Part shown: positions 24,451 through 43,291 of the stretch, piece after piece
How positions within the stretch are numbered: the first letter of the stretch is position 1
Layout: each line of letters starts with the position of its first letter
Source of the DNA: Roseiflexus sp.
Lineage (GTDB): Bacteria > Chloroflexota > Chloroflexia > Chloroflexales > Roseiflexaceae
Assembly (NCBI GenBank): GCA_017743475.1
Contig: JAGHYV010000031.1
Span: 1 to 51,243 of the forward strand
Reading direction: 5' to 3'
DNA: 51,243 nucleotides
Made by a program: the position numbers and the translations under genes
Notes under the pieces: generated by a model
The model's database searches: none
Seen by the model: the letters and a program-made list of their open reading frames with translations, nothing else
Told to the model about the DNA's origin: nothing

Positions 24451-24555
24451 TCCCCAGGTTTTTGCACGCCGCTAGCGGTTCGCTCCCCTTGCGGGCGCCT
24501 GGAGGTTGTGTCCTGCTCGTCATGATTTTCTTGCGAGCATCTCAAGGAGGCGCTC

Positions 24556-25689: not shown

Positions 25690-25697
25690 CGTTCGTG

Positions 25698-26042
25698 ATG
25701 GACCTGCTGCGCACATACTGGCGCTGGCTTGCGTTGATTGCCGTGGTTGCGGTGCTGACGAACAGCCGTAACCTTCCCTGGCCCCTCGTCGCACTGGTTC
25801 TGGGAGGTACAGCAGGGTATCTGCTCCGCGAAGGATGGCGTGTCTGGCGGCGCGCAGGAGGACCTCCGACCCGCAGCAAAGTGACCTACTGGCGCGGTCA
25901 GCGGATCGAAGTCGGCGCGCCGCGCGCCGGTCCTGCATTGCCTGACGTGCGCAGCATTGGTCCTGCGCTGATCTACCTCGTTCCGGGTCTTCTTTGCGCT
26001 CTAATTGCTGTAGCAATTGTGCTACGTAGTGTGGGGTTGTAA
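25698..26042 (+). CDS. Small membrane protein of unknown function
   Basis: 114 residues with hydrophobic segments near 8-26, 29-45 and 87-110. A basic middle has WRVWRRAGGPPTRSKVTYWRGQRIEV. I recognise no family; the WRGQRIEV stretch resembles short membrane proteins linked with Ser/Thr-kinase or protease genes, but this is weak. It starts nine bases after dnaN and probably shares its transcript. A GTG directly before the ATG could serve instead. Confidence 0.65.
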   Translation: MDLLRTYWRWLALIAVVAVLTNSRNLPWPLVALVLGGTAGYLLREGWRVWRRAGGPPTRSKVTYWRGQRIEVGAPRAGPALPDVRSIGPALIYLVPGLLCALIAVAIVLRSVGL

Positions 26043-26087
26043 ATCGCATCCCCGGATACACATACGCGGCTTCGGAATGCAGCATCC

Positions 26088-27224
26088 GTGATCGAGCAAC
26101 ATTCTGTCGCAACCGCCAGAGCGCAGCAAGCCATGCAGACGAACGACTATCACAGGGAACCACCAGTGCAGACGACGCTCCGTTTGATAGTAGGGTGCCT
26201 TATGCTGGCGTGTGGCGTTCTCCTGGTGCAGCGTCTGCCGAACCCGGATTTGTTCGGTGATTATGTTGCCGTCTGTCGCTGGTGGCAACGCTTTCCGGCG
26301 CAATCCTGGACGGCAGCAATCAGCGGCTGTGATCCGCTTGTGGACTATAGCGCTTTCGCTCCCAATCCCCATCCTCCCTTTTCAACTCTTCTGCTGCTGC
26401 TCCTTGGTCTGTTTGCCTGGCCCGATGCGCGCTGGGTATGGTTCGGAATCAGCGGCTGCTGTCTGCTCGGCGCGTGGCACTTCCACCGTGTGCCAGTCGT
26501 CGTATGCACTGCCACGGCTCTCTTTGGCATTTTCGGATTGTACCGCGGAACGCTGGAACCGTTTTTGTTCACACTGATGCTTGTGGCGCTGACGGTAGGG
26601 AAAACGCGCCCGATCCATGCCGCAATTCTTATTGGTCTGGCAGCGGCAATCAAAATCTATCCCGGACTGCTTCTGGCTTCCTTTCTGCTAGAGCGCCGCC
26701 ACAAAGCGTTGCTGATGGGCGTTGCCGCTGCTGGCGCCGCGACAGTGATAAGCACGATGGCAGTCGGACTGGATGTGCTGGGCGAGTGGATGGCGCACAC
26801 AGCGCCGAACGCCCATTTCTGGCGTTCAAATCCGGATAACCTTTCCCTGGCGCGAATTGTGGGAAACATCGCACCGCAGTTTTCTCCGTTGCTGGCAGCG
26901 ATATTTTTCTTTGCGCTCACCCTGCTTCTTCTTGCTCGGAAAAAAAAGGGCCATCCAATCTCAATGCAGACGTTGTTGCCAGCAACACTCCTCGTTACAC
27001 CACTGGTGTGGAGCCACTATATCATCCACGTTGGACTGCTCAGATTGACGCGACTTAAACAGGTCCTGTTCCTGGCAGGAGGCGGACTGATCTTTCTGAG
27101 CAGTCTAAACCTGCTTCCAACTCAGAGCGCCGCAGCGGCATACGGTCCTGTCCTGGCAGCGCTGGTGTTGCTGTGGTATCGCGCCTGGCGAGACGGTCTT
27201 AGTCTTTCTACTGAACCCGTGTAG
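26088..27224 (+). CDS. GT87-like (DUF2029) integral membrane glycosyltransferase
   Basis: 378 residues (363 from ATG 26133), about ten hydrophobic segments. Family marks are the acidic first loop with DLFGDYVAV, FAPNPHPPFSTLLLLLLG and AAIKIYPGLLLASFLL. GT87 enzymes are GT-C glycosyltransferases that use polyprenyl-phosphate sugars, typically mannose, outside the membrane. The same AAIKIYPG signature occurs in the 31-32 kb gene, so the two are paralogues. The start is uncertain: GTG 26088 or ATG 26133, both without a clear ribosome site. Acceptor unknown. Confidence 0.75.
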   Translation: MIEQHSVATARAQQAMQTNDYHREPPVQTTLRLIVGCLMLACGVLLVQRLPNPDLFGDYVAVCRWWQRFPAQSWTAAISGCDPLVDYSAFAPNPHPPFSTLLLLLLGLFAWPDARWVWFGISGCCLLGAWHFHRVPVVVCTATALFGIFGLYRGTLEPFLFTLMLVALTVGKTRPIHAAILIGLAAAIKIYPGLLLASFLLERRHKALLMGVAAAGAATVISTMAVGLDVLGEWMAHTAPNAHFWRSNPDNLSLARIVGNIAPQFSPLLAAIFFFALTLLLLARKKKGHPISMQTLLPATLLVTPLVWSHYIIHVGLLRLTRLKQVLFLAGGGLIFLSSLNLLPTQSAAAAYGPVLAALVLLWYRAWRDGLSLSTEPV

Positions 27225-27376: not shown

Positions 27377-29032
27377 ATGACGACATCGCACGACACTCTC
27401 CAGCAAGGTATTGCGGCAGCGCGCTCCGGGCAGCGTGCCCTGGCGCGGCAACTCTTTGTGCGTGCAATTGAGGCAAATCAGCATAACGATGAAGCGTGGG
27501 TCTGGCTTGCGGGTGTCGTGGATGATCCTGCTGATATGCGGCGCTGCCTGCAACAGGCGCTGCGGATCAATCCGTTGAACCCACAGGCGCGTCAGGGAAT
27601 TGCTTGGCTTGACCAGCAAGCCAGGCAGGCGCAGAAGACCTCATCATCCACAGGCGCACCACCTGGCGGTCAGGTATCATCGGCATCTCTGTCGGCGACG
27701 ATGCACCCACTGCCGTCCCAGGCAGCGAATCTGTCGTCATCGGCGCCGTCTGCACCCAAAGGCGGGCTTTTCCAGCTGCCCTCCGCGACGAACAGTTCTT
27801 CGTCTGCGTCTCAATCAGATGCGTCAGTCTCATTGGCGGCGACGCATCCACTGCCGTCCCAGGCAGCGAATCCGCCATCACCAGCGCCGTCTGCAACTAA
27901 AGGCGGGCTTTTCCAACTCCCCCCAGCAACAAACAGTGCAGCAAGTGCATCGGCAGCGCCAGCATCTAATCGCCCCTCCAGCCTCCCGCGTCCAGCCGAC
28001 CAACCTGCCCGTCGGTTCGCCCTCTTCGGTAAGCCCAAACCGACCGCTGCTGCAATAGTCGCCACGGCGGCTGGCGCAGCCAGTGCGACAATGACTGCAC
28101 CGGTGTCGAAACCACATTGGAAAGCGAAAGAGCTACCGCCGGAGGATGGCGACCCCACGCGCGATCGCTGCCCATATTGTGGTGAGTTGAACAACCCAGA
28201 TCGGAAACGATGCCGTCGCTGCGACCGCAGCCTCATGATTCGCGGTCCGGTGCGTGAACAACGCTCTCTGTGGCTCTCCATCCTGGGCATTGTCTGGATC
28301 ATTGGCGGCGTGCTGGGCATTCTGGGAGCGGTTCTGATACTGATTGGTCTCCTGGTGCTATACAACTCATTCTTCGGCAGTCTGTCCGGGTTCCCGCTGA
28401 TCGTTGTGCTTATCGCAGTGATCATTGCCCTGATCTATGGCGGGCAGATTGCTCTTGCGCGCGCAATGCTGAATCGCGCCCGTTGGGCATACTGGATCAT
28501 TGCCGTACTGACGGCGCTGCAACTTGGCGGTTCTTTGGTCGGCGCGCTTGGCGCCTCCGCAGCAATCGGCGACGCTATTGCTCAGGCACGGGAGTTTCTT
28601 CCTTCGCCAGACGCTGCTGCCGCTGTCGCTGCAGTCGGCGGCATCTTCGGGGCAGCCGGACTGATTGATGTTGCCATCAAGGCATTCTTCATGCTGCTGG
28701 TCGGGTTGAGCTGGCGCGATTTCTATGGACCCAAAGAGCGCTTCGTTTCTGAGGTGCGCGGCAATACCGACTACGAACTGTTCAACACCGGTCTGGCGCT
28801 GCAACGCAAAGGCATGTGGTGGATGGCGATGAAACAGTGGGAAGCGGCAGTCGCCAATTCACCGCGTGATACCGATTACCTCCACGCTTTGGCGGTCGCC
28901 TACGCGAAACTCGGCGAGTGGGAAAAGGCACGCGAAACCATCGCAAAGGCGATCACAATTTCCCCGAATAACCCGATCTTGAGACAGATTCAGGAACGGA
29001 TTGAACGCATGACGCTTGCAGCGCAGGGGTAA
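27377..29032 (+). CDS. TPR / zinc-ribbon membrane protein
   Basis: 551 residues. An N-terminal TPR-like pair (1-75) is followed by a Ser/Ala/Pro-rich linker (about 80-250) holding a duplicated segment around KGGLFQLP. A zinc ribbon, CPYCGELNNPDRKRCRRC (about 262-279), comes next, then several membrane segments (about 295-330, 338-365, 372-390 and 420-440). The C-terminal TPR (about 460-540; AMKQWEAAVANSPRDTDYLH) closes the protein. This looks like a cytoplasmic-facing scaffold anchored in the membrane; function unknown. ATG 27377 is the first residue of the TPR-like helix. Confidence 0.75.
   Translation: MTTSHDTLQQGIAAARSGQRALARQLFVRAIEANQHNDEAWVWLAGVVDDPADMRRCLQQALRINPLNPQARQGIAWLDQQARQAQKTSSSTGAPPGGQVSSASLSATMHPLPSQAANLSSSAPSAPKGGLFQLPSATNSSSSASQSDASVSLAATHPLPSQAANPPSPAPSATKGGLFQLPPATNSAASASAAPASNRPSSLPRPADQPARRFALFGKPKPTAAAIVATAAGAASATMTAPVSKPHWKAKELPPEDGDPTRDRCPYCGELNNPDRKRCRRCDRSLMIRGPVREQRSLWLSILGIVWIIGGVLGILGAVLILIGLLVLYNSFFGSLSGFPLIVVLIAVIIALIYGGQIALARAMLNRARWAYWIIAVLTALQLGGSLVGALGASAAIGDAIAQAREFLPSPDAAAAVAAVGGIFGAAGLIDVAIKAFFMLLVGLSWRDFYGPKERFVSEVRGNTDYELFNTGLALQRKGMWWMAMKQWEAAVANSPRDTDYLHALAVAYAKLGEWEKARETIAKAITISPNNPILRQIQERIERMTLAAQG
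27695..27936 (+). repeat. Imperfect direct repeat inside the TPR/zinc-ribbon gene
   Basis: Units of about 100 bases (27695-27795 and 27839-27936) share GCGACG...CACTGCCGTCCCAGG...GGCGGGCTTTTCCA. Each encodes HPLPSQAAN...KGGLFQLP. A recent internal duplication of the linker. Confidence 0.8.
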
Positions 29033-29127: not shown

Positions 29128-31125
29128 TCACTGCTCTACTTCGACCATCGCGACAGGGTGCTCGTCTGTGCCTGCCATCCGACTGCGCTCGTCGGTCAGC
29201 GCCGCATTGGGGTGGCGCACATCGTACCAGCCGACGCGCCAGGTGTAGCGACCGGGCAGTGCATCAGACGGCACAACCACATCGAAGGTCTCTTTGACGA
29301 CATCACCCTCCCGCCATTCCCACGCCGGTCGCAGCGCGTAGCCAGGCACATGGACGAACCGCGCGCCTGCGACTCCCTCCAGCCGACTCACCGCAACATA
29401 CTGTGCGCCTGGCGGCAACGCCTCGCGCACCCGCCACACAAACGTCGCCCGCAACCGGCGCGGCGCGATTGTATCAACCTGCGCACGTACCAGGTCGAAC
29501 GGTCCGAACCGTTGCAACGCTGGTGCGCCATTGTCAGGAACGAGCGACAGGCTATTGATCAGTACTCGGTCAGGAGGCGCGTCACGCGCGAACAGCAACA
29601 ATCCATCCTCCATATCGACTAGCGCAAATGCTGGATCGTTCAGAAGGGTTGCGATCGCGTCGCGGTCATAATCAAGACCGCCGCCATACCCGTCATCTAG
29701 GTGAAGGTACCAGTCGAAGAGCGCATCAGGCAGCACATACTGCACCTGCGGCAACAGCGATGGCAGGCGTTCGGCGCGCGCCTCGAACGGGTAGCGCACC
29801 AGATACACGGTTTCGCGGTTTACGAGATGGGTAGCAACGAAGGTTGAAGCGGCAAGCGGCGCATCGGGCGGTACACGGGTTGCCAGAAATGATGCCAGGC
29901 GCGCGTCACGTGGAGTAACACCGTAGATTGACCGGTCGAAGCCATACCCCGGCACACCAGACCAGAACAACGGATTAAGCGGCGTATTGACCAGCAATGC
30001 GCTGCAGATTGCCGTAACTGCGACGGTAAAGCCGAGATCGCCGCGCCACGAACGTCGTGGGCGCCGGGTCGCATCCGGCGGTCGAGCCATTGCGGCGCTC
30101 TTCATCCGCGCCGCGCCGTCGATGATCGCCATCACGATGAACGGCACGACCAGGGCATAATGGTGATACCGGTAGTCAAACGCACCGCCGGGACCGGTTG
30201 AGATGAGCATTGCCGCTGCCAGTGGCAAGCCCGGCAGCAACCAGCGCCAGCCGCGCCACGCTACCAGCAACGCTGGACCAAAGACCACAATTGCATTCAG
30301 AAATCGGTCGGGCAGGGTTGCTGCAATCTCGTGCAGTGCGCCGAAATAGTACGCCAGATATTCGCCGGTGATCTCCGCTGCACGACCAGCGGAGGCAGGG
30401 GTAAACAGCGGTCGCACAACGAAAAATGCCAGTGCACCGTAGACCCCGCCTGCCAGCGCGGTTCGTGCACCAATGCGCCGCTGCCCTTCCCACAGCCACA
30501 GTACCGCACCGATACCCACCACCAGCGCAGCAACATAGAACTTCATACTGAGCGCCAGTGCGATCCACAGCGCGAACCGGCGCCAGGCGTGCACGTCGAG
30601 CGCATCAAGCGCAAACAGCAGCAACGGCGCCGCGACCGTATCGGCATGAAAATCAAAAAGCACACTGGTCTGCGCAGTTGGATAGAGCAGGTAGATGAGC
30701 GCCAGGCAGCGTGCCGCATATGGGCGCACAGCCTGCCCATCGCTGCCGGTTGCATCGATCCGCCGCCACGCTATGCGATACACAGGGATAGCCCCCAGTG
30801 CAAAGAGGGCTGCCTGCACTGCCAGCAAAGCGCGTGGATCAGGCCAGGTTGCGTAGATCGGCCCAAGAAGGAAATACCCGATCTCGACATGCCCGGCGAG
30901 ACGCGAGGCACGCATCCCTTCGGGGCGCGAGTAGAGCAGCGGTTCGCCGCGTGAGCCGCTCCAGATCGCCTGCGCCATATTCCCCAGATCGTACATGCCA
31001 GCGTTGAACCCATCGTAGCGCGCAATGCTTAACCAGCTCAGCATGGCGCTGATCAGCAGAACGGCAGTCCAGAGAAAAGGATCGCGGAGAGAGGGACGTA
31101 GAGAAGCAGGGGGAGTCGTAATCAT
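29128..31125 (-). CDS. DUF2079 membrane protein (GT-C glycosyltransferase-like)
   Basis: 665 residues. About ten hydrophobic segments occupy residues 15-370, and a soluble outer domain of about 280 residues follows. The first loop carries DGFNAGMYDLGNMAQAIW, the acidic signature of DUF2079, a family placed near GT-C glycosyltransferases. The soluble end holds a beta-rich part (PRRLRATFVWRVREALPPG) that may bind glycan. Last gene of the tightly packed minus-strand run; it begins nine bases after the stop of the frameshifted GT87 gene. Donor and acceptor are unknown. Confidence 0.8.
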   Translation of the reverse strand: MITTPPASLRPSLRDPFLWTAVLLISAMLSWLSIARYDGFNAGMYDLGNMAQAIWSGSRGEPLLYSRPEGMRASRLAGHVEIGYFLLGPIYATWPDPRALLAVQAALFALGAIPVYRIAWRRIDATGSDGQAVRPYAARCLALIYLLYPTAQTSVLFDFHADTVAAPLLLFALDALDVHAWRRFALWIALALSMKFYVAALVVGIGAVLWLWEGQRRIGARTALAGGVYGALAFFVVRPLFTPASAGRAAEITGEYLAYYFGALHEIAATLPDRFLNAIVVFGPALLVAWRGWRWLLPGLPLAAAMLISTGPGGAFDYRYHHYALVVPFIVMAIIDGAARMKSAAMARPPDATRRPRRSWRGDLGFTVAVTAICSALLVNTPLNPLFWSGVPGYGFDRSIYGVTPRDARLASFLATRVPPDAPLAASTFVATHLVNRETVYLVRYPFEARAERLPSLLPQVQYVLPDALFDWYLHLDDGYGGGLDYDRDAIATLLNDPAFALVDMEDGLLLFARDAPPDRVLINSLSLVPDNGAPALQRFGPFDLVRAQVDTIAPRRLRATFVWRVREALPPGAQYVAVSRLEGVAGARFVHVPGYALRPAWEWREGDVVKETFDVVVPSDALPGRYTWRVGWYDVRHPNAALTDERSRMAGTDEHPVAMVEVEQ

Positions 31126-31134
31126 GAGAGCTTG

Positions 31135-32264
31135 TCAGGTTCTTAGGAGTCGAGAATCTGAAGAATTGTTACCTAACGAACGGTTATACTTCAATCCCCA
31201 ACGAAGAGTATCGAGCCACATGATAAGCAACCCGCCGATCAACGGTGCAATTATCACTATTTCTGTGCTGTGCGACAGCGAAAGCAGACCAACACGACTG
31301 AGGAGTGCAGCAATACCTCCAATGCCAAAACAGAGCGCTACTCCATAATGTGGACGTCCCAATCCTAAAAGCGCGACATAGTGAGGACCGACAAGAGGAC
31401 TTCCGGCGATCATGATCGGCAGCAAAGAGCGCCAGTCACTGCTACGAAACAGATACGGCGCCATTGGCAGAATAAGCAGAACGATAACTATCACTGACAC
31501 GAGAGAAATGGACAATCCCGGAAAAACCAGATGCACTAGACGCACAACTGAAGCATTTCCTGCAGTATTGAGGTATCGCTCCACGTTCCAGGGAATATAT
31601 GCAAGCCAGGCAGCAAATGCCCATTTTCCCAGTATCATATCGGCGACAAATGTCACACCAACTGCTGTTATGAGTCCGTACAAGCCCTCTCGCCAGCGAA
31701 GAGCAATAAAAAATGCGATAAGAAGAACCCCCGGATATATCTTGATAGCTGCTGCAAGTCCAATAAGAACAGCGGCTAGACCGGGGTGGTACGGACTGAC
31801 ACGGAGCGCAAGAGCAAGCATAAGCATCAGGATCGGCTCAAAAACGCCTAATGACAGACCAACCACCCACATTGCTGCAGTAGATAGCGCCATTCCTCGA
31901 TTGACCCCAATACATAGCCATGCCAGCGGTATCGCAAGACATCCGATCATCAACCAGATAGCACGCGCCACCTTGAAGGGAAGCAATCCAAGCGGCAGAA
32001 CAAGGAATGTAGCAAATGGTGGATGTGCAGTCTGGTATGCACCGCTCACGTTATCTTCCGGGCAGCAAGCCTGATATATGAGAAATGTCGGTGCACTGGG
32101 ATCCATTCCATGCCACCATGCCATGCAGCCGCATAGTCTTGAGCAAAATCTGCTCCGCTTTCCCGGCTGATCGCAATGAGCGCTGCCACCAGAAAACTTC
32201 CAGCAACCATTGCAACCCATTGCTGTCGATTCTGTGATCGACTCGCGGCATTAGACGCCCACAT
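31135..32264 (-). pseudogene. GT87-like glycosyltransferase gene with an apparent frameshift
   Basis: The 5' end (ATG 32264, with AAAGGA upstream) encodes a membrane helix and ADFAQDYAAAWHGG, the family's first outer loop. The conserved continuation DPSAPTFLIYQACCP and the remaining 330 residues, including HPPFATFLVLPLGLLP and AAIKIYPGVLLIAFF, lie in another frame. One missing base in the GCATGG-rich stretch near 32104-32116 explains it; no slippery heptamer is seen. The downstream frame is open to 31135. It may be a recent pseudogene, a sequencing error, or re-initiated. Visibly more A/T-rich than its neighbours. It overlaps the upstream gene by 14 bases, as in an operon. Confidence 0.75.
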
Positions 32265-33222
32265 CGCTCTGAATTCCTTTCCTGTCCGAAGAAGATGCCT
32301 TCGCGTTTACTATTGTCGTTATCAGGGTTGGCAATCCTGCGAGACTGCAAAGCAAGAGCAGTATGCGTCCGATAATCGCCGCTGCCACAGCCTGATCGGG
32401 TGACATGTCAACACGCATCAACAGCACCGTGATTATACCCTCACGGACACCCAAACCACCAGGGGTCAACGGAAGCAGGCCGATCAAGCCCACAATGGGC
32501 CAGAGGAATGCTATCGCAATCGATGCATCGGAAGTGATGGACAGCGCAAGCAACCAGAGACTCAGGCCGTTGAAGAGGTGAAAAAGAACCGATAATGCCA
32601 GACATGCGACAACAATGCCAGCACTGCTCCGATAGCGCACCACGACATCCCTGACTTGCCGAAAGACAAGTGCTCCTCGATGCGACGAGCGCATCAAACG
32701 GGCAGGCGGCGCACCAAGCGCTGCGGCGATCCCAATCGTTGCCAATAGTGCGACAAAACTCGCGCTTACCGGCAACCACACCGGCACATCCAGCATACTG
32801 GGCATCAGCATCAGCGCGGGTGAGGCAAGCGCTACCAGTGTGATCAACCCGGTGAGACGTTCCATAACCACGCTTGACCACACAGCCGTACCTTCGCCCA
32901 ACGCGCGAGCGGCGGCATAGCCGCGCCCCACATCCCCACCGACATCCGAAGGCAACAGGGCGCCCACTAGCGATCCCATGAGATACCACAGCACCAGGTG
33001 GGACAGCGATACATGTATGTCCTGGGCGCGGAGCAGCAATTGCCACTTGATGCAACTCAACGCCACACCAATAAAATAAATCACTACGCATCCGATGAGT
33101 GGAAGCGGATGCGCTCTTAATACTGTCGTCCAGACCGACCGGATTTCGGCGAATTGCACGATAAGGAGCGCGATCAGCGCCACACCCACGCCAACTCTGA
33201 CCCAATGGCGCCAGTGTTTCAT
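32251..33222 (-). CDS. LPG-synthase TM / AglD-type (UPF0104) membrane protein
   Basis: 323 residues with eight or so hydrophobic segments, matching the lysylphosphatidylglycerol-synthase transmembrane family (UPF0104) but without the soluble aminoacyl domain. Characteristic are LVLWYLMGSLVGALLPSDVGG and the later PLTPGGLGVREGIITVLLMR. Family members sit in glycan and lipid operons and are proposed flippases, or glycosyltransferase partners such as archaeal AglD. ATG 33222 overlaps the methyltransferase stop as ATGA. Here it may move lipid-linked sugar donors across the membrane. Confidence 0.85.
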   Translation of the reverse strand: MKHWRHWVRVGVGVALIALLIVQFAEIRSVWTTVLRAHPLPLIGCVVIYFIGVALSCIKWQLLLRAQDIHVSLSHLVLWYLMGSLVGALLPSDVGGDVGRGYAAARALGEGTAVWSSVVMERLTGLITLVALASPALMLMPSMLDVPVWLPVSASFVALLATIGIAAALGAPPARLMRSSHRGALVFRQVRDVVVRYRSSAGIVVACLALSVLFHLFNGLSLWLLALSITSDASIAIAFLWPIVGLIGLLPLTPGGLGVREGIITVLLMRVDMSPDQAVAAAIIGRILLLLCSLAGLPTLITTIVNAKASSSDRKGIQSDVGV

Positions 33223-33929
33223 TGCGGTACTCGACCGATCATCAGAATTGCTCGCGCAAAGGTTAGCCGCATCTTATACAGTTTTTCCCCCAATGTCCCC
33301 GGAATCATTCGTGCAATAGCGCCCATCGTTCCACCACCGAGCGTATATCCTCCCAGCCATCCAGCAGTTCCGGTAAACGGACCGTAGAGACTGCGCTGCT
33401 CGATCACGGTCAACCCTGCATCGTGATACATCTGCAGCAAACGACGTCTGGTTGTTACAAAACTATGGCTGTAATCACAATTCCAGAAATCTTCACGCAG
33501 CGCAAGATAGTCAGGTACGATAAGGGCGACGATTCCACCGGGAATGACCACGCGACGCATCTCGCTGAGAAGCGACAGCGCCTCCACGTAGCCAGGACTG
33601 TGTTCTACGACGTGGGACGCAAATGCTATATCGAACGCTCGACTCACAAACGGAAGACGCTCCGCGTATGATTGGACGCTGCAAACTCCCTGATCACCAA
33701 GCCGCATGAGCAATCGATGGTTGATATCCAGGGCATAGTAGCGAAGATGTGCCTGAAGGCAAACACTGGCGAATACTCCACGCCCCGGTCCAATTTCAAG
33801 GAGAGAACGTGAGTGCGGAGAGACGCATAACAGTCGTCCAAGGACATAGCGCGCCTGTGTTCTCACCCATGCGATCCCTGCTGCTGTCGCCGACCGATCG
33901 CCGTAATAATCATAAAATGGCATGGTCAC
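33219..33929 (-). CDS. Class I SAM-dependent methyltransferase
   Basis: 236 residues with one methyltransferase-11-type fold. The SAM loop is LLEIGPGRGVFAS (about 43-55), then the acidic residue of YALDINHRLL. Motif II is FDIAFASHVVEHSPG (about 103-117) and the post-motif is GGIVALIVPDYLALRED. The GTG start overlaps the stop of the upstream GT2 gene (GTGA), which supports it over an ATG two codons later. Probably methylates a sugar or lipid-linked glycan made by the same operon. Confidence 0.85.
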   Translation of the reverse strand: MTMPFYDYYGDRSATAAGIAWVRTQARYVLGRLLCVSPHSRSLLEIGPGRGVFASVCLQAHLRYYALDINHRLLMRLGDQGVCSVQSYAERLPFVSRAFDIAFASHVVEHSPGYVEALSLLSEMRRVVIPGGIVALIVPDYLALREDFWNCDYSHSFVTTRRRLLQMYHDAGLTVIEQRSLYGPFTGTAGWLGGYTLGGGTMGAIARMIPGTLGEKLYKMRLTFARAILMIGRVPQ

Positions 33930-35008
33930 CCCGCAAATGGAGCAGCGAGACGCCAGTACAGAGCAAACGCCCGTTCCAGCACACTCTGCGCCAGACGTTC
34001 TGCTGGACTCTGGATCAATCCAGGCACGTACGAAAGATGATGTGCCGAAAGCAACTCACGATCAGAAATGCAGCGCGATGACTGAATGCGCTTCCGGTGA
34101 AACCAGATCGCGCGCCGGTATCGCACAACATCCCGCAAAGCGCGCCAGTATGCTCGCATCCAGCCCTTGTGCAGGGCAGTGATCACTAACAGGGCTTCAT
34201 AGAGCGCCAATGCAGGCAGACAGACCAGCAGCGTATTCCAGGCATATATTTTGGCAATTAACATCCAGCGATTACGATAGATGAGATACGCGCGTTGCGA
34301 CGGATACCGCCCCTGACCGCGCCAACTCGTCTCCGGATTACCCTGCCAGTGATAGACGACTGAGCGTGGTGCAACGTAACATCGCCAACCACGCAATCGC
34401 ATCCGCAGTGAGAGATCGAAATCGTTCAGATAAATGAAAAAACGAGGATCGAAGCCTCCTACTGCAAGCGCTCGCTGACGATGGATCAGAAGCGACGTGC
34501 TCGCCTGCGCTCCGACTTCTACAGATTCCAGATCACCAGACGCCTCCTCCAGTTTGACGAATCCGTTGCGCAAGGTCATATGACCCACATAGTGCGCATA
34601 CCCGCCATCGTGGTGAATGCGGTTCTGCGCTGCGAGCACTGCACGCGAGCCGACCATGCCAGTTGAGGGCCACATCGCTTCTGCCGTTGCGAGCAGCGGT
34701 GCAAGCCAGCTATCTGAAACAGTAGTGTCGTGGTCAAGCAGTAACACCCAGGTGGTCTCTGCATAATGCAGCGCAAGATTGCACGCAGCGCTATGCCCGA
34801 TATTTTGCGGTAAGGCAATAAGACTGCACTCTGGAAAATCGCGCCGCACAATATCGATCGTTCCATCCTGCGAAGCATTATCCACGACAAGAATTCGCGC
34901 ATGGGAAGCGGCTGTACGCACGGATTGCAGACATGCGTGGATATACTCCGCAGAATTGTATGTAATCAGTACGATGGTGACCCCTGAGTCAAATGATTCC
35001 ACTTTCAC
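33926..35008 (-). CDS. GT2 glycosyltransferase (rhamnosyltransferase-like)
   Basis: 360 residues. The GT-A nucleotide-sugar domain (1 to about 220) has TIVLITYNSAEYIHACL, ILVVDNASQDGT, LLLDHDTTVSDSW as the DxD-like metal site, and FIYLNDFDLSLRMRLRGW as the acceptor/ED region. It resembles WbbL-type rhamnosyltransferases. The C-terminal 100 residues contain hydrophobic, basic helices that probably contact the membrane. GTG 35008 overlaps the preceding TGA (GTGA), giving a 4-base overlap in the operon. Confidence 0.88.
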   Translation of the reverse strand: MKVESFDSGVTIVLITYNSAEYIHACLQSVRTAASHARILVVDNASQDGTIDIVRRDFPECSLIALPQNIGHSAACNLALHYAETTWVLLLDHDTTVSDSWLAPLLATAEAMWPSTGMVGSRAVLAAQNRIHHDGGYAHYVGHMTLRNGFVKLEEASGDLESVEVGAQASTSLLIHRQRALAVGGFDPRFFIYLNDFDLSLRMRLRGWRCYVAPRSVVYHWQGNPETSWRGQGRYPSQRAYLIYRNRWMLIAKIYAWNTLLVCLPALALYEALLVITALHKGWMRAYWRALRDVVRYRRAIWFHRKRIQSSRCISDRELLSAHHLSYVPGLIQSPAERLAQSVLERAFALYWRLAAPFAG

Positions 35009-36108
35009 TCCATTATCCGTCGATACACATCCTCATACCGCCGTGTCACCTCTTCCCAGGCAAAGGCAGCGATCCGCGCGCGCGCCCGGACGCTCAGTTC
35101 GGCACGCAGGTCGGCATTCTGCATCAGACGCTCCAGGGCTTCACGGAGCGCCGGTACATCCTGCGGCGGAACCAGGATGCCAGCATCACCGACAACTTCG
35201 GGCATACCGCTGACATTGGCGGTGATGATGGCGCATCCGCCCGCCAGCGCTTCGAGCAGCACAACCGGGAAGTTATCGTTGATCGAGGGGAAAACAAAGA
35301 TCGCGCTGGTGGCGTACAGTTCTTCCAGCGGGGCGCCTTTGATAAAACCGCGCCAGTCGATCGGCACACCCAGGCGTTGCGCCAGCGCCTGCAATTCCTC
35401 GCGCATCGGTCCGTCTCCGGCGATGGTCACCTCCCATCCGTTGAGTGGCAGTCCTGCCAGCGCCTCGATAAGATACTGCGCTCCTTTGCGCGGAAACAGG
35501 CGACTGACGAACAGGATGCGCTGTTTTCGTTCTCCAGTTGGTGGCGGAGGCGGATCGAAGCCGTAGGGGATGATCTCGACCGACACTGTACACGTCTGTT
35601 GTATGAGTCCACGTAGATAGTGTGATGGTGAAACGATCATATCAGCGCTGCGCGCAACCAGGCGCCACGCTGGAGCGATCACCCGATGAGCGCGGATGAA
35701 GCGATCCGGATTGTACCCTGGCACATCCGATCCGTGGGCGGTGATCACCAGTGGTAAACCGCTTACCTGACGCACAACTGCTGCCAGAATACCGGTCGGC
35801 ACAATGAAATGTGCATGCACCACATCGTAGCGTCGGTGTCGCAGCAACGCCAGCGCTGGCGGCAACGCAGCTGCGACATAACTCAAAAGTTCGACCGCTT
35901 CGGCGCGCACTGCTGATCGTCGCAACGCCGGCACGCGGATCACCCGCACGTTATCGAACGTTTCGACCGGTGGCAGACGACGGAACCCCATCGTGACCAC
36001 ATCGATCTCATGCCCGGCGTTTGCGAGATGCAGACACAGATCGCGCGTCACCGGGCTGGCGCCCCCGCCAAGCGGCGGATACTCGTAATTGAGCATCAGG
36101 ATGCGCAT
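35005..36108 (-). CDS. GT4 glycosyltransferase
   Basis: 367-residue GT-B enzyme. The N-terminal acceptor domain opens MRILMLNYEYPPLGGG, and the donor domain begins near 185 with RILFVSRLFPRKGAQYLIEAL. The E-x7-E motif region reads DNFPVVLLEALAGG, so the first Glu appears to be Asp. ATG 36108, with AGGA nearby, overlaps the end of the upstream GT87 gene by 13 bases. The donor is probably a GDP- or UDP-sugar, used on the cytoplasmic side to extend a lipid-linked or surface glycan. Confidence 0.9.
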   Translation of the reverse strand: MRILMLNYEYPPLGGGASPVTRDLCLHLANAGHEIDVVTMGFRRLPPVETFDNVRVIRVPALRRSAVRAEAVELLSYVAAALPPALALLRHRRYDVVHAHFIVPTGILAAVVRQVSGLPLVITAHGSDVPGYNPDRFIRAHRVIAPAWRLVARSADMIVSPSHYLRGLIQQTCTVSVEIIPYGFDPPPPPTGERKQRILFVSRLFPRKGAQYLIEALAGLPLNGWEVTIAGDGPMREELQALAQRLGVPIDWRGFIKGAPLEELYATSAIFVFPSINDNFPVVLLEALAGGCAIITANVSGMPEVVGDAGILVPPQDVPALREALERLMQNADLRAELSVRARARIAAFAWEEVTRRYEDVYRRIME

Positions 36109-37184
36109 GATACGTTCCTGTTCTCTGGAACATGTCGCCCGATAACTGCCAGACCAGCGACCAGTGGTAGATAGAAGCCGAGAGAACGGGCAAGAACGAT
36201 GTCCGCATCTGCACTGATAAGCGGAAGTGCCAGCACGCTCCAACTTGCTGCAATCGTCAGCGCAGCCAACCGCAGAGCACGCATCGTCAACACTGTAAGA
36301 GGCAGCAGCAGCACTGCGTGATTGTAGAAACTGCGAGTCGGCAACACGATCAAGAGAACTACGACGACAGCAGCAAGCAGCAGTGGTGCATCACGCCGTC
36401 TCCAGGCAAGCGCCGCAACAATCATCACCAGTATGGCTGATAGCATACCAACAAACGAAAGTGCGTCGATCTGGTTCTGATCCTCGGCGTCATAGGCGCG
36501 TATCTGCTCCATCCATGCCAGCACCCATCCGGGCGCTAGCATCTGTGTTCCTACCCAGAAGATGAACAATCCACCCGCTAGTCCCAACCACCAGCGAGCA
36601 GGAACATTCAGCTGCCATGCGTAGGCAAGTAAGCCTGCCAGAAGCGCGATACCCACATGTGGCTTGAGCAACGTGAGTGATGCCACAGCACCAGAGAGCA
36701 GCCAGCGTGATCGATGCAACCAGCGCAAACTGAGCAGGGTCCAGAGCAGGAGCAACGGACCCCATTGCCCCTCCTCCAGCGACGCCCAGAGCGGGAAGTA
36801 GGCGAGCATCACTCCCGCAAACCGTGGTTCGGGCGTATCCCGAAATGCGAACGGGAGAGCAAACACGACTGATAGACTCATAAGCGCCCACACGGTTGAC
36901 GCCCCAGCGAGCGGCAGCAACGCAAGAGGAACACAGATGAGTATGGCAGGAAAGGGGTACGCAAAACCGGAACCGGTTCCCAGCAGACGATCACCCGTTG
37001 CACCGTAGGGGTCTACTCCGGATAGCCAGAGACGTGCTGCCAGCCACCAGACCTGGAGGTCGGGCGTGGTATAGACGGTGGCATAAGCATGGTACATAAG
37101 TGCAATAAGGCATACGCCTGAGACAAACATCGCCAATGCCTGCCAGCGTCTTCCGGCGTGCCAGGGTCGCCATGTGCTATCCAT
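36096..37184 (-). CDS. GT87-like (DUF2029) membrane glycosyltransferase
   Basis: 362 residues, about ten hydrophobic segments. First-loop signature TTPDLQVWWLAARLWLSGVDPYG, then FAYPFPAILICVPLALLP and the TLLKPHVGIALLAGLLAY segment, matching the GT87 pattern. It would use a polyprenyl-phosphate sugar on the outer membrane face. ATG 37184 overlaps the GT2 stop by 8 bases, with GAGG upstream. It is placed directly behind the gene for the likely donor synthase. Confidence 0.82.
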   Translation of the reverse strand: MDSTWRPWHAGRRWQALAMFVSGVCLIALMYHAYATVYTTPDLQVWWLAARLWLSGVDPYGATGDRLLGTGSGFAYPFPAILICVPLALLPLAGASTVWALMSLSVVFALPFAFRDTPEPRFAGVMLAYFPLWASLEEGQWGPLLLLWTLLSLRWLHRSRWLLSGAVASLTLLKPHVGIALLAGLLAYAWQLNVPARWWLGLAGGLFIFWVGTQMLAPGWVLAWMEQIRAYDAEDQNQIDALSFVGMLSAILVMIVAALAWRRRDAPLLLAAVVVVLLIVLPTRSFYNHAVLLLPLTVLTMRALRLAALTIAASWSVLALPLISADADIVLARSLGFYLPLVAGLAVIGRHVPENRNVSCAS

Positions 37185-38193
37185 CGCCGTTCACCTCTTC
37201 GCGCACGACGTAGATTGGCTTGGCTTGCGTTTCGTAGTAGGTGCGCACCACCAGTTCGCCGATCAGCCCCAGACTGATGAACTGTACCCCCAGCACGATC
37301 AGCAGCACCGCCAGAAGCAGCAGTGGTCGGTCAGCAATAGCGGTACCATACGCCAGTTTGATCCACGTCAGATACGCGCCGATTGCAAGACCTGCGCCGC
37401 CAGCAAGTATGCCAAGCAAGCCGAAGATCTGCATTGGTCGGGTGCCGTAACTGAGCAAAAATCGCACGGTCACCAGGTCGAGCAGGACGCGCAGGGTACG
37501 GTTGATGCCATACTTCGATTTGCCAAAACGACGCGGCACGTGACGCACCGGTAGTTCGGTCACCGACACTCCCTGCCAGCTAGCGATTGCCGGGATGAAG
37601 CGGTGCAACTCGCCATAGAGACGGATGCTGCGCACCACGTCGCGGCGGTACGCTTTGAGTGAACAACCGTAATCGTGCAGATGGACGCCAGTTGCCCACG
37701 AGATCAGGCGATTGGCGATCATCGACGGCAGTCGCCGGTTGAGGAACGGATCGCGGCGACGCTCGCGCCATCCGCTCACAACATCGTATCCTTCCTCGAT
37801 CTTTGCGAGCAACGCGGCAATATCTGCCGGATCGTTCTGCAGATCCGCATCAATCGTCACCACCACATCGCCGCGCGCCCGGTCGAAACCTGCGGAGAAT
37901 GCCGCCGTTTGCCCGAAGTTGCGCCGGAAACGCACCACCCGCAACCGCCGGTCGCGCTGCGCCAGATCGCGTAACAGATCAAAACTCCGGTCACGGCTGC
38001 CATCATCGACGGCAATGATTTCGTAGGGGAGTCCGAGGTTCTCCAGTTCGACCGTCAACCGCCGGTAGAGATGCGGGATACTCTCTTCCTCGTTGTACAC
38101 TGGCACTACTACCGAGAGATGCGGAACAGGCGCATCGTCCGGTTCCTGCACCGCTCTGGCGTATGGTTCGTGGGTTGTGACCGTTTCTGTCAT
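37177..38193 (-). CDS. Polyprenyl-phosphate sugar synthase (GT2, DPM1/ArnC-like) with C-terminal TM pair
   Basis: 338 residues. The GT2 domain (about 20-245) has LSVVVPVYNEEESIPHLY, IIAVDDGSRDRSF, VVTIDADLQNDPADI (DxD) and SGWRERRRDPFLNR. Two hydrophobic hairpins (about 250-275, 285-315) anchor it. Such enzymes transfer mannose, glucose or aminosugars from NDP-sugar to polyprenyl phosphate, making the lipid donor for GT-C enzymes. It therefore probably supplies the GT87, DUF2079 and PIG-V-like proteins beside it. ATG 38193 is preferred; an in-frame TTG at 38238 lies in the repeat array. Confidence 0.9.
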   Translation of the reverse strand: MTETVTTHEPYARAVQEPDDAPVPHLSVVVPVYNEEESIPHLYRRLTVELENLGLPYEIIAVDDGSRDRSFDLLRDLAQRDRRLRVVRFRRNFGQTAAFSAGFDRARGDVVVTIDADLQNDPADIAALLAKIEEGYDVVSGWRERRRDPFLNRRLPSMIANRLISWATGVHLHDYGCSLKAYRRDVVRSIRLYGELHRFIPAIASWQGVSVTELPVRHVPRRFGKSKYGINRTLRVLLDLVTVRFLLSYGTRPMQIFGLLGILAGGAGLAIGAYLTWIKLAYGTAIADRPLLLLAVLLIVLGVQFISLGLIGELVVRTYYETQAKPIYVVREEVNGDG

Positions 38194-38220
38194 AGATTCT
38201 GGCGACCCGTCTGCGCTTAC

Positions 38221-38304
38221 TGAACGTTCAACCTTCAACCTTCAACTTTCAACCTTCAACTTTCAACCTTCAACCCTCAACCTTCAACCTTCGACCTTCA
38301 ACCC
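38221..38304. repeat. TTCAACC-type heptanucleotide array
   Basis: About twelve 7-base units (TTCAACC, TTCAACT, TTCGACC) fill the gap between the PIG-V-like stop and the GT2 start. The array occupies the 5' side of the donor-synthase gene. Confidence 0.9.
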
Positions 38305-39553
38305 TTATGGCACAAACGCATTGCGCACATACATCGACGCGATCAGCGCCCACAGCAACGCATTGCAACCCAGCGTGAGCCACAGAACGACCGGCGACCG
38401 CGCCCATCGTGCCAGTTGAAAGAAGAGCGGAAAAATGATCGTGAACCGGCGAATAATCCCCATATAGGGCCACAATGGATAGACGATCGACAGGTTCAGC
38501 GCCGCCAGGGTCAGACTGTAGATCGCATAACTGCGTCGCACGCGCACGGCGGCTGCCAGGGTCAGCGCCAGCATGATCAGCATGACCAGGACGTTGAGAA
38601 GCAGGTAGAAATACGGTCGCTGACGCAACTGGTCAAGCGCATAGCCAAAATTGACCCAGGGCCAGCTAAACGTTTCTCCCCACACATTAGCATACGATGG
38701 CGTCACTAGGAGAGCACTGATGAGTGTGTCGGGCCTGTACCACAAAAATGCAACATCGCCGAGAGTTGCACGGTATACGATCCATCCCAGGAGCGCCAGC
38801 GGCGTTAGCGCCAGCCCAGCCAGTGGACCAGACAGCACGCGCAACCCATGGCTGCGCGCGGCATCTCTGTGCTGTTGCCATAGTTCCCACAGCAACGGCA
38901 GCAGCACCACCACTCCGGGTTGTTTGGTCAACGCCGCAGCGCCTCCAGCGGCGCCAGCAAGCCACCAGCGCCCGCGTCGCGCCGCGTACAACGCTGCAAC
39001 GATGCTCAACAACAGGAGGGATTCGGTGTACGGCAGCAGGAATGAAAAACCGAGCGGACTGCCGATCAGGAACAGCGTTGTGCGCTGCGCCGTGGCTTCA
39101 TCGTCATCAAGAGCGACGAGACGGTAGAGCAGCGCAAGCATCGTCACACAGCACACGTGCGCGATCAACCAGGCTGCCAGCAGGTATTCACCCCCGAACA
39201 TTCGCCCCAGGAGACCGGTCAGCAACGGTATAGAGAGGGTGAAATGCAGCGTCGCCCGGACGATGCCCATAACCGTGCTGTGCAATACCAATATACCAGA
39301 TGACGTCATAGCGCAAAAGCGGAAGCAGCACCACACGTTCCAGCCACGTCCACAGCGGCGCCGACGGGGGCCAGACCGCGACCGAGGCTTCTTCCAACCA
39401 CTTCGGGTAGACCGATGAAACCCAGGCATTCCAGATCACGAAGAGTGCACAATAGCCAGCATATAGCCGCAGCGCCCAGCGCCACGCCATTGCGGGCGTC
39501 TGCGCAGTCTGCGCAACAGATCGATCAATCCCGATGTCGGTCGTGACCCCCAT
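38305..39553 (-). pseudogene. PIG-V-like GT-C mannosyltransferase gene with an apparent frameshift
   Basis: The 5' frame (ATG 39553; an in-frame start at 39640 is possible) encodes RYDVIWYIGIAQHGYG...DAAFHPLY. The conserved continuation PLLTGLLGRMFGGEYLL and 300 further residues with about eight membrane segments lie in a second frame, to 38305. Removing one base from TATACCG near 39229-39232 restores LYPLLTGL, the sequence expected for the family. PIG-V/GT76-type enzymes use polyprenyl-phosphate mannose outside the membrane. A recent one-base insertion or a sequence error is likely; no slippery site is seen. Confidence 0.78.
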
Positions 39554-39931
39554 CAGAGCATGCTCACTCCTGAGGTTGACTGTGATCAGGAATCGTACAT
39601 CGGGGCGCAGAGGCGTAGGGATGTCGTGGTTTCGCACCAACCACCAGACTATTCACCATGTGAAGGCACGTCCCAGCGCTCCACCTGCAAGCGCTACACT
39701 GACGTCTTCTCTGCCGCCCCCATTCCTTCTACCGCTCGTTGCAGTTTCTACCTTCAGTATACCGTTGTTGCATCTGGAGAAGAGTCGCAGAATTGCATCA
39801 ATCCGTATGCAAAACCGCCATCATTGAAGGCGCTGCGGCAGCGTCTGCGCGGGAGTCACACGCTGCACTCCGTCGCGGTGGAGGTTCCGGCAGCGAGTCT
39901 GCGAGGGAATGTCGTTCTGCAACCGGATCGA
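39554..39931. other. Intergenic region between PIG-V-like gene and HepT remnant
   Basis: No gene is supported. A minus-strand TATACT (39756-39761) may be the -10 of the glycan operon, with no good -35. Short GC-rich self-complementary bits occur near 39836. Confidence 0.35.
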
Positions 39932-40337
39932 TCACAGGAACCGTACGAATATACGCTGGAATGTTTCAAGATCGTCAATATTTTCCTGCAAGACCCGAAA
40001 AACAATGCTTCTATCGATCTTTAGATTGTCGTGGACGAGAATATTGCGAAAACCGATCATCTTCAGGTTTCCTTCTGGGAGGCGTCTATCAATCCACCTT
40101 CACGTAATCGATGAGGGATATCGCTATACCAATATTTCCCAGCCCCGATTCGGCCACAACGTGATTGCCCAGATCGTTGATCGGTTCGATAGCCAGTTGA
40201 AGAAAGCGCTCTACACTCCCGTATCGCTCCGGGTTACTGACAAACTCATCATACGAGTACTTTTGCAACTGTCGGAGAATAGCCAGATACTCATTCAGCT
40301 TCTCTATCCTCTTGCGGATGACTTCGGGTCTGACCAT
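39932..40337 (-). pseudogene. HepT (HEPN, DUF86) toxin gene with two frameshifts
   Basis: The 5' part from ATG 40337 reads VRPEVIRKRIEKLNEYL...AIEPINDLGNHVVAE, a typical HepT N-terminal half. A frame change near 40128-40135 gives YSDIPHRLREGGLIDASQKET. A second near 40063-40068 gives MIGFRNILVHDNLKID and runs to the TGA at 39932. The RNase motif R-N-x3-H is preserved as RNILVH. The following position, normally Tyr (the residue AMPylated by MntA), is Asn. Two frameshifts make a functional toxin very unlikely. It overlaps the antitoxin gene by 47 bases. Confidence 0.85.
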
Positions 40338-40737
40338 GCAAGATCCTCTGTTTATACGCCTGTCGCTGGACATCCAGGTATGGCCGGAAATCCAGGAACT
40401 GACGCACGACTCTGGAAAAATACGATCCCCGATCAAAGTCTTCCGTCTGATAGATCAACCGGTTATGGCGCACCACCTCGTGCTTCAACACGATATTATC
40501 AGTGTCGAGGATGACCAGATCAACCCGACAGAACCCTGCGCGCGCCAGATCGGTCAGAATATCGAGGCGCGGCAACTTGCCCGCACCCGGTCGCGGCACT
40601 ATTGCCAGATCGAGGTCGCTCTCTGCGTGAAGCCTGCCAGTGACTGCTGAACCAAACAGGTAGACTGCCTGAATATCCGGGTATGTTCTGAAGATGTCAG
40701 ACAATCGTTCTAGTTCGGGAAACATATCTGGTTTCAT
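40291..40737 (-). CDS. MntA-like nucleotidyltransferase antitoxin
   Basis: 148-residue minimal nucleotidyltransferase with the signature GSAVTGRLHAESDLD (G-S-x10-D-x-D) near residues 29-43. In HepT/MntA systems it AMPylates the HEPN toxin on a tyrosine and so neutralises it. This gene is intact, while its partner downstream is frameshifted. The C-terminal 30 residues extend across the toxin start. No clear ribosome site is seen before ATG 40737; the 40-base leader, including the start codon, is duplicated 101 bases upstream. Confidence 0.85.
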   Translation of the reverse strand: MKPDMFPELERLSDIFRTYPDIQAVYLFGSAVTGRLHAESDLDLAIVPRPGAGKLPRLDILTDLARAGFCRVDLVILDTDNIVLKHEVVRHNRLIYQTEDFDRGSYFSRVVRQFLDFRPYLDVQRQAYKQRILHGQTRSHPQEDREAE

Positions 40738-40878
40738 ACGCGCACGGGAGAGAACACACAGTCACCAAAACGTTCAAGGTTCGACGTTCCAACGTTCCAA
40801 CGTTCAACGTTCAAACGTTCATCATTAACTGGTTTCATACGCACACGGGAGAGAACACACCGACATCAAAACGTTCAA
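40728..40878. repeat. Direct duplication of the mntA start region
   Basis: Two 50-base copies, 40728-40777 and 40829-40878, 101 bases apart with 4 mismatches. Each contains CTGGTTTCATACG (the antitoxin start on the minus strand) and GGGAGAGAACACAC. Heptanucleotide units fill the gap. Confidence 0.85.
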
Positions 40879-41015
40879 CGCCCAACCTTCAACGTTCAAC
40901 ATTCCAACATTCAACGGTCCAACGTTCAACGCCCAGCGCCCAACCTTCAACATTCCAACGTTCAACCTTCAACGTTCCAACGTTCAACCTTCAACCCTTC
41001 AACCCTTCAACCTTC
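40770..41015. repeat. Large TTCAACG-type heptanucleotide array
   Basis: The longest array of the window: about 245 bases of TTCAACG/TTCCAAC/TTCAACC variants. Its right end supplies the asnB stop codon (41007-41009). No gene is seen in 40738-41006. Confidence 0.9.
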
Positions 41016-43004: not shown

Positions 43005-43005
43005 A

Positions 43006-43132
43006 AGAACCAAGAACCAAGAACCAGAGACTGAGAACCGAGAACTGAGAACTGAGAACCGAGAACTGAGAACTGAGAACCAGGAACCGAGAACCAGGAA
43101 CTGAGAACTGAGAACCAGGAACTGAGAACTGA
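43006..43132. repeat. GAGAACT-type heptanucleotide array before asnB
   Basis: About eighteen 7-base units (GAGAACT, GAGAACC, CAGGAAC). Because 7 is prime to 3, the minus-strand frame repeats every 21 bases and stays open, reading Ser-Gln-Phe-Leu-Val-Leu-type heptads fused in frame to asnB. A small hairpin TCAGGC/GCCTGA follows at 43160-43180. Confidence 0.9.
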
Positions 43133-43180
43133 ATCGTATCATCCAAACCTGCCGACCGATCAGGCTTCCCACCTGCCTGA

Positions 43181-43268
43181 CGTTCAACGTTCAACGTTCA
43201 ATCCTCAACCCTTGACTTCTACTCGCAACCTTCAGCCTTCAACCTTCAACCCTCAACCTCAACCTTCG
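43181..43268. repeat. TTCAACC-type array, left copy of a 52-bp direct repeat
   Basis: Heptanucleotide array. Bases 43199-43250 match 44156-44207 at 49 of 52 positions without gaps; all three differences are transitions. The two copies flank the HEPN/MNT pair. Confidence 0.9.
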
Positions 43269-43291
43269 CACTTTGCCTCGGTGGTAAACAT

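Follow-up and report, generated by a model that had tools for sequence, protein, structure and literature searches.

In this work, we analyse a locus of Roseiflexus sp. which we read, with a probability of about 0.68, as a polyprenyl-phosphate-sugar-dependent glycosylation system similar to the three-component (Gtr/Arn-type) ones, possessing extra cytoplasmic enzymes and a swappable interior that alters the surface glycan. The window, i.e. the whole analysed DNA stretch of 51,243 nucleotides, carries here eight tightly packed minus-strand genes running from 38193 to 29128 (Table 1), bounded by genes of a polyprenyl-phosphate glycosyltransferase (the synthase) and of a DUF2079 protein. The gene set is not fixed: these two ends are conserved, while the interior is exchanged between strains.

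As computed from the gene coordinates, the synthase and GT87a genes overlap by 8 nt and GT87a and GT4 by 13 nt, followed by overlaps of 4 nt each (GT4/GT2, GT2/methyltransferase, methyltransferase/LPG_TM), of 14 nt (LPG_TM/GT87b) and a 9-nt gap between GT87b and DUF2079, which agrees with the original prediction of eight close-packed adjacent genes separated by small overlaps or a 9-nt gap. Its family labels were reproduced by Pfam for DUF2079, LPG_synthase_TM, GT4, GT2, the methyltransferase and GT87b, with GT87a falling below the cut-off. The heptamer array beside the synthase gene is an ordinary, genus-wide dispersed repeat.

Table 1. Features of the glycosylation locus and its surroundings (window coordinates)
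Feature	Coordinates	Strand	Evidence
GT-C-like membrane protein, frameshift-split; conserved cassette flank	38305..39550	-	homologue comparison
Heptamer tandem repeat, between GT-C-like gene and synthase	38223..38303	.	repeat analysis
ArnC/GtrB-type polyprenyl-phosphate glycosyltransferase, bookend 1; GT2 + C-terminal membrane part, 338 aa	37177..38193	-	PF00535 2.7e-35
GT87a, weak GT87-like GT-C protein, 362 aa	36096..37184	-	PF09594 E 4.5e-4, below cut-off
GT4 glycosyltransferase, 367 aa	35005..36108	-	PF00534 (Glycos_transf_1) 2.5e-33
GT2 glycosyltransferase, 360 aa	33926..35008	-	PF00535 7e-22
SAM-dependent methyltransferase, 236 aa	33219..33929	-	PF08241 5e-14
LPG_synthase_TM / flippase-like membrane protein (LPG_TM), stand-alone, 323 aa	32251..33222	-	PF03706 6e-39; TIGR00374
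GT87b, frameshift-split in present assembly	31135..32264	-	PF09594 6e-21 on C-part
DUF2079, bookend 2; predicted GT-C glycosyltransferase + C-terminal beta-rich domain, 665 aa	29128..31125	-	PF09852 1.5e-49
Conserved right-hand cassette flank: TPR membrane protein	27377..29032	+	gene comparison with relatives
GT87c, GT87b paralogue	26088..27224	+	PF09594 2.5e-19

Judged by sequence, the synthase is a member of the ArnC family, though not ArnC itself: it matches ArnC of known structure (PDB 9hwj) with E 1.3e-72 and scores 257 bits against the NCBIfam profile PRK10714 (ArnC), below the equivalog cut-off of 529. Through this family membership, and with its activity predicted, it would supply the polyprenyl-phosphate sugar synthase which three-component systems require. 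ArnC-like proteins are widespread (112 of 301 genomes drawn from the phylum), and 7 of the 27 relatives having an orthologue of the synthase lack DUF2079 (regions read for six of these seven), so this family serves other pathways too.

The DUF2079 protein scores 169.8 bits against PF09852 (cut-off 28.2), a family for which no characterised function was found in the literature searched, and by sequence search it resembles neither ArnT nor any other protein of solved structure. Its AlphaFold model (pLDDT 91.8) superimposes on ArnT 5f15 with Z 18.7 and 5.5 Å over 424 aligned residues, as well as on OST and PglB with Z 17-19, and all six Foldseek matches at E<=0.001 are GT-C enzymes (ALG9, EmbC, ArnT). 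Weak matches of NPC2 type (E 0.01 or more) presumably concern the C-terminal beta domain. D46, H79, D158, H160, D162, K195 and H321 are invariant in 31/31 sequences and H322 is kept in 30 of them; K195 coincides with the GT87 lysine in a profile alignment. For PimE, PMC12041525 assigns the role of base to D58 and the binding of the phosphate to K195/H322. The proposed structure check of DUF2079 thus returned a GT-C fold with the acidic catalytic residue (D46, 31/31) in place, and this predicted fold, together with invariant D46, K195 and H321, would provide the GT-C enzyme needed for transfer outside the cell. Fold, invariant residues and regular pairing suggest that DUF2079 is a GT-C enzyme fed by the ArnC-type synthase.

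The expected aspartate and lysine were found in the GT87 members as well. D51 and K187 (P0001 numbering) are invariant in 6/6 sequences, GT87a keeps D42 and K174, and the catalytic aspartate of the window GT87b lies upstream of its frameshift. GT87b and GT87c score 75.7 and 70.4 bits, over the PF09594 cut-off of 25, and GT87a reaches 20.5 bits alone and 26.8 bits when scored together with its neighbours in the frame. The intact homologue of GT87b in G003 matches PimE 9dm5 (E 2e-5), phmmer pairing the GT87 lysine with PimE K195. For GT87a a sequence search of structures found no solved relative, and its structure model was set aside (pLDDT 41.6, from a two-sequence alignment); true orthologues were seen only in two other Roseiflexus genomes. 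GT87 is missing from most relatives' cassettes, and GT87c of G002 is a C-terminal fragment only.

The arrangement of the end genes is kept in Chloroflexales. Both are present in 20 of 60 relatives' genomes, and in 19 of these 20 the synthase gene immediately precedes DUF2079 at its 5' side and shares its strand (G003 is counted by a contig-end fragment); in the remaining one, G029, they are on different contigs. DUF2079 occurs without a synthase orthologue in G032 and G041. Counting DUF2079 loci with at least 6 kb of upstream sequence, the synthase was found upstream in 22/29 and missing there in 7/29, and in the phylum draw of 301 genomes it was linked in 12/12 genomes with a close DUF2079. 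Loci L065 and L066 show the minimal form, a synthase followed directly by DUF2079. The gene-set conservation which the original prediction asked for therefore applies to the ends, whereas the exact set of eight was seen only in Roseiflexus. Neither absence of conservation nor loss of GT-C catalytic residues was encountered in full, because the residues are kept and the order of end genes is conserved. No comparable Chloroflexota system was found in the literature searched, as far as the available text of these sources goes.

Exchange of the interior is seen in a near congener, G002, whose flanks are about 92% identical to the window. Its interior differs from that of the window and is common to other families, its synthase is chimeric (N-part 98% and C-part 55% identical to the window synthase), and the C-half of a DUF2079 of the window type is left over in it; for these reasons the cassette must have been replaced in G002. 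This one congener pair shows that the interior is exchanged as a cassette by recombination, with breakpoints in the end genes. Different surface glycans on different strains are a probable consequence. The synthase C-part, and not the N-part, sets type-2 cassettes, the kind whose interior G002 carries, apart from all others (identity 70-88% within, 51-67% between; 17 of 19 loci, near-copies L094 and L108 left out; label test on the first 2500 possible sets, not a random draw). Matching of the synthase membrane half to DUF2079 was rejected as a general rule, since in 19 loci the C-part gave a rho of 0.23 versus 0.52 for the N-part; the partial correlations of synthase and DUF2079 identity were 0.20 and 0.50, respectively, the C-part value being reached by 19/2000 permutations. 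A plasmid search found nothing. We tentatively propose, at somewhat less than even odds, that synthase and DUF2079 are fixed ends of a swappable Chloroflexales cassette, in which recombination inside the synthase gene would leave the sugar-charging domain in place and bring a new membrane half, interior and DUF2079 together. The surface glycan of these filamentous phototrophs would then change in a serotype-like way, with phage pressure as a possible driver, and DUF2079 would be a new GT-C family using the synthase product.

In the mechanism we favour, the ArnC-type synthase would charge polyprenyl phosphate with one sugar at the inner face, and GT4, GT2 and the methyltransferase, whose order of action we infer, would work inside the cell on an acceptor, either lipid-linked or a glycolipid, by building or capping it. 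The LPG_TM protein, or one encoded elsewhere in the genome, may move the lipid intermediate outward, where DUF2079, helped by GT87 in the window strain, would transfer the sugar from polyprenyl phosphate to the outside acceptor; the predicted GT-C fold, invariant key residues and genetic link to the synthase are consistent with this last step. The sugar, acceptor, flippase and product are likewise presumed. Flippase candidates are LPG_TM inside the cassette (77.4 bits against TIGR00374, over the cut-off of 43.2, with the LPG_synthase_TM domain only and no solved relative in a sequence search of structures) and a nearby MurJ-like protein. LPG_TM and the methyltransferase are not obligatory, being missing from 6/24 and 8/24 bookended loci by blastp. 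A profile search of the whole genome, in which 7 of 14 controls were positive, gave 0 matches to GtrA (PF04138). The idea of a lipid-linked glycosylation module with its own synthase and a GT-C battery is upheld by the ArnC-family synthase standing beside GT-C proteins with their catalytic constellation, but the fuller picture of a "self-contained mannan machine" finds support only in part: self-containment is not supported, given the lack of a GtrA match in the genome, a guessed flippase, two genes frameshifted in this assembly and the occurrence of the synthase without DUF2079, and a mannan-like product is conjecture.

These frameshifts also correct two genes formerly described as whole. GT87b is not one reading frame: frame -2 encodes the N-part, where the acidic motif is found, and frame -1 the remainder, the break lying between 32154 and 32115, and the G003 homologue is a single frame. 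The upstream gene formerly called PIG-V-like has a one-base frameshift at about 39229, and its orthologues are unbroken in 4/4 relatives examined (G002, G003, G005, G009). The PIG-V label was rejected, as intact orthologues from G002 and G009 gave no match at E up to 10 to PIG-V of Pfam (PF04188); the G009 orthologue has weak PMT_2 and GT87 matches, below cut-off, and a sequence search of structures found no solved relative of this gene. The machine may be partly broken in the window strain, or the assembly may be wrong. Decay of the locus, leaving the strain unable to make the complete glycan, would agree with two frameshifts within about 8 kb, each of them hitting a GT-C gene that is unbroken in relatives, and with the shortened GT87c of G002. 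We find it rather unlikely, given that sequencing error is possible in a draft assembly of 206 contigs, that identity is alike on both sides of each break (92 and 97% against G002 for the GT-C-like gene, 60 and 59% against G003 for GT87b), and that the reading frames of the other seven genes in the set are uninterrupted.

Two other readings concern the product. A PIM-like membrane glycolipid instead of a polymer, where GT4 and GT2 glycosylate a lipid inside, LPG_TM flips it and GT87/DUF2079 extend it like PimE, is suggested by the PimE match of GT87b (via the G003 homologue), and the LPG_TM/MprF families handle lipids. PimE itself uses a lipid acceptor (PMC12041525, available part). This reading is also doubtful, for a Pfam search of the eight genes revealed no inositol or other lipid-head enzyme, and most relatives' cassettes have no GT87. 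More improbable still is an unremarkable cluster for the synthesis of heteropolysaccharide or S-layer glycan, forming the end of a larger one at 41007-51173, in which DUF2079 would be one glycosyltransferase among others and its pairing with the synthase a matter of neighbourhood, not function. That region does encode AsnB, two GT4, a MurJ/Wzx-like flippase, a methyltransferase and a DegT aminotransferase, and AsnB and GT4 adjoin the cassette in L064 too; however, the regular ends are synthase and DUF2079 alone, and both are kept in L066, with no AsnB, MurJ or other cluster member matched nearby, and in L065, with only unrelated polysaccharide genes upstream.

Under the preferred reading, that of a polyprenyl-phosphate-sugar-dependent system with an exchangeable interior, DUF2079 gains a direct, testable assignment as a GT-C enzyme fed by an ArnC-type synthase. 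The congener swap points to an exchange of surface-glycan cassettes among the filamentous phototrophs of hot-spring mats, much like the O-serotype change of enteric bacteria, and type 1, type 2 and the chimeric synthase are markers for following this exchange in mats.

Among known systems, AglD of haloarchaea is a GT2 fused to LPG_TM; the locus likewise combines a GT2 enzyme and a member of the LPG_TM family within a single pathway, but its LPG_TM is a stand-alone protein of 323 aa with no GT domain, so the AglD-type fusion is lacking. With PimE and other PPM-dependent mannosyltransferases (GT87) it shares GT87b, which aligns with PimE and keeps lysine K195 and the aspartate, yet the similarity is weak (E 2e-5) and the operon has no PIM pathway genes. 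ArnC-ArnT lipid A modification (9hwj, 5f15) is alike in the ArnC-family synthase and the predicted ArnT-like GT-C fold of DUF2079, which differs in having no sequence match to ArnT; no Arn sugar-modifying enzyme was detected by Pfam among the eight genes. In three-component extracytoplasmic glycosylation systems, such as GtrA/GtrB/Gtr of Shigella and Salmonella and the GT136 system of C. youngae O1/O2 (PMC11127046), a polyprenyl-phosphate sugar synthase adjoins a GT-C enzyme with an extra extracytoplasmic domain, as here, and the surface glycan changes from strain to strain, as it probably does in our locus. The locus is distinct in that DUF2079 replaces the known GT-C families and no GtrA was matched in the genome, in the extra GT4, GT2, methyltransferase and LPG_TM between synthase and GT-C, and in the exchange of the whole interior.

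The window is one entire contig, C184, from a draft genome totalling 4.97 Mb in 206 contigs. Its glycosylation cassette consists of eight genes read from 38193 to 29128 on the minus strand, with overlaps of 4-14 nt and a single 9-nt gap. Among named relatives, Roseiflexus sp. SKYB12 (L079 among the DUF2079 loci from genome records, G003 among the relatives' genomes) is nearest at this locus; G002, of the same genus, is a one-contig genome of 5,801,598 bases. The original prediction of a self-contained lipid-linked glycosylation module described a real arrangement, albeit with two errors; its interpretation was right in outline, but overconfident in detail, and it missed the exchange of interior genes reported below. 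The synthase matched solved ArnC at E 1.3e-72 and scored 257 bits against the ArnC equivalog, the cut-off of which is 529; judged from these matches, it is ArnC-like.

Features of the window
Feature	Position	Strand	Basis
Cassette, 5'->3': ArnC-type synthase, GT87a, GT4, GT2, methyltransferase, LPG_synthase_TM, GT87b, DUF2079	38193-29128	-	family matches
846-aa fusion: NTP-transferase, hexapeptide and phosphoglucomutase/phosphomannomutase domains	14704-17244	-	
Polysaccharide cluster adjoining the cassette: AsnB, two GT4, MurJ/Wzx-like flippase, methyltransferase, DegT aminotransferase	41007-51173		
Polbeta-type nucleotidyltransferase and HEPN protein, flanking asnB	40291-40737 and 43536-44012	-	
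Short-unit (mostly heptamer) tandem repeats	4815-4856, 9637-9686, 38223-38303, 40769-41016, 43006-43267, 44183-44246, 51174-51243		

One of the repeat arrays lies at the contig end, and dozens of similar arrays occur throughout Roseiflexus genomes. The Polbeta-type and HEPN genes resemble parts of HEPN/MNT toxin-antitoxin systems but, unlike such a pair, are separated here.

Comparison of gene neighbourhoods indicates that the two ends of the cassette, synthase and DUF2079, belong together. Among 60 relatives (own genome counted), a synthase orthologue at >=68% identity was present in 27, DUF2079 above 300 bits in 22 and both in 20, leaving seven genomes with the synthase alone and two with DUF2079 alone. 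Coordinates compared by eye placed the synthase on the same strand and <=6.1 kb 5' of DUF2079 in 18 of the 20 genomes with both; G003, whose DUF2079 contig begins with the 3' end of the synthase, raises this to 19/20, and in G029 the two genes are on separate contigs. As a rough control, about 30 distant DUF2079 paralogues were inspected by eye in the tables, and none lay <20 kb from an ArnC-like match. The genome-record sample held 40 DUF2079 loci. A same-strand synthase was found <=7.5 kb upstream in 21 of the 29 loci with >=6 kb upstream sequence (22/29 with L079, where a fragment of the synthase lies at the contig end) and in two of the 11 with less (L088, L105); no upstream synthase was seen in seven of the 29 (L084, L091, L098, L101, L106, L117, L118). 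Of 301 Chloroflexota genomes drawn, 12, all of them also counted in the 60 relatives and all from the window's order, carried a close DUF2079, each with an adjacent synthase (12/12), and the synthase family occurred in 112/301, which suggests that DUF2079 relies on the synthase and not the converse. A conserved gene precedes the synthase in two genomes lacking DUF2079 of this clade (L119 8150-8917, L120 1701-2519).

The interior between these ends varies. DUF2079 directly follows the synthase in L065 and L066; the interior is GT4 alone in L077 (same place as L111), one GT87 in L083, GT4-GT2-MTase-LPG_TM in L085 and L100, and GT4-GT4-MTase-LPG_TM in L064/L080 and L095. A type 2 set (GT4'-LPG_TM'-MTase') occupies it in L088, L090, L092, L093, L094, L107, L108 and G002. 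By blastp, LPG_TM lay between the ends in 18 of the 24 bookended loci, and a methyltransferase in 16; across the 60 relatives, G001 and G003 alone had true orthologues of GT87a.

Both types occur within Roseiflexus: among six genomes searched, the window-like type 1 was found in the window, G003 and G001 (on a small contig that lacks both end genes); G002 and G005 (L093) have type 2, and G004 has neither. G002 has the same site with matching flanks: identity is 91.8% across window 37454-41020 and 92.3% across 23113-26045. Its DNA match ends within the synthase at window 37454 and restarts within DUF2079 at 30077. Its synthase is 98% identical to that of the window over residues 20-235 and 55% over 245-336, the latter part being 88% identical to G005. 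A full type 2 DUF2079 in G002 is adjoined by a type 1 DUF2079 remnant (residues 319-665, 87%). Across 17 synthases, the C-terminal part sets type 2 apart without overlap (within 70-88%, between 51-67%), and the N-terminal part gives no such separation. The DUF2079 tree groups the window with L079 and L080 (100/100), and G002 and G005 with type 2 loci from other lineages (97/96); it puts all type 2 down to one change, but their unity is poorly supported (57/12). The simplest account of these sequence comparisons is that a type 2 cassette replaced type 1 in the G002 lineage through recombination at two points, one a crossover inside the synthase gene and the other a join within DUF2079.

Frameshifts interrupt two genes of the window. 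GT87b opens in frame -2, where the motif DFAQDYAAAW lies, and its remainder is in frame -1; the change of frame falls in the interval 32154-32115. In G003 the homologue forms a single frame of 386 residues. The GT-C-like gene upstream of the synthase has a one-base split near 39229 and is unbroken in four relatives (G002, G003, G005, G009); its earlier label, PIG-V, finds no Pfam support. Because identity is similar on both sides of each break, these frameshifts may be either recent or assembly errors.

Judging by its predicted structure and conserved residues, DUF2079 very probably belongs to the GT-C glycosyltransferases. A sequence-only search found no solved relative. The AlphaFold2 model, built from an alignment of 31 sequences (the window and related loci), had pLDDT 91.8, and its six Foldseek matches at E<=0.001 were ALG9, EmbC and ArnT. 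VIA-align gave Z 19.0 for human OST, 18.7 for ArnT (5.5 A, 424 residues), 17.4 for PglB and 14.0 for AftB, values exceeding the range flagged by the tool's warning on helical proteins. Residues D46, H79, D158, H160, D162, K195 and H321 are invariant (31/31), and H322 is conserved in 30/31. In the model, D46 begins the helix after the first transmembrane helix, a placement like that of the catalytic aspartate in PimE, ArnT, ALG6 and PglB as described in PMC12041525. By hhalign (E 3.1e-5, probability 73%) K195 pairs with a GT87 lysine, which phmmer in turn pairs with PimE K195; PimE K195 and H322 hold the donor phosphate, according to the same source. The C-terminal domain (residues about 540-640; window 29128-29600) is also matched in other, larger Chloroflexota open frames, such as a 765-codon one (G000:C56:214876-215124), and by sequence it is a shared module.

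The cassette most likely works as follows. The synthase would charge polyprenyl phosphate on the inside, where GT4, GT2 and the methyltransferase would act on the acceptor; the intermediate would then be carried outward, and DUF2079, joined in type 1 by the GT87 proteins, would add sugar outside. The proposal of a mannan as the product found no direct support, although the 846-aa fusion encoded at 14704-17244 has a phosphomannomutase-like part. GtrA, the classical proposed flippase of three-component systems according to PMC11127046, is absent from the window's genome, which was searched entire. That genome encodes six LPG_TM proteins, and the one in the cassette is a candidate flippase. The proposed scheme follows the logic of three-component systems, as presented in PMC11127046.
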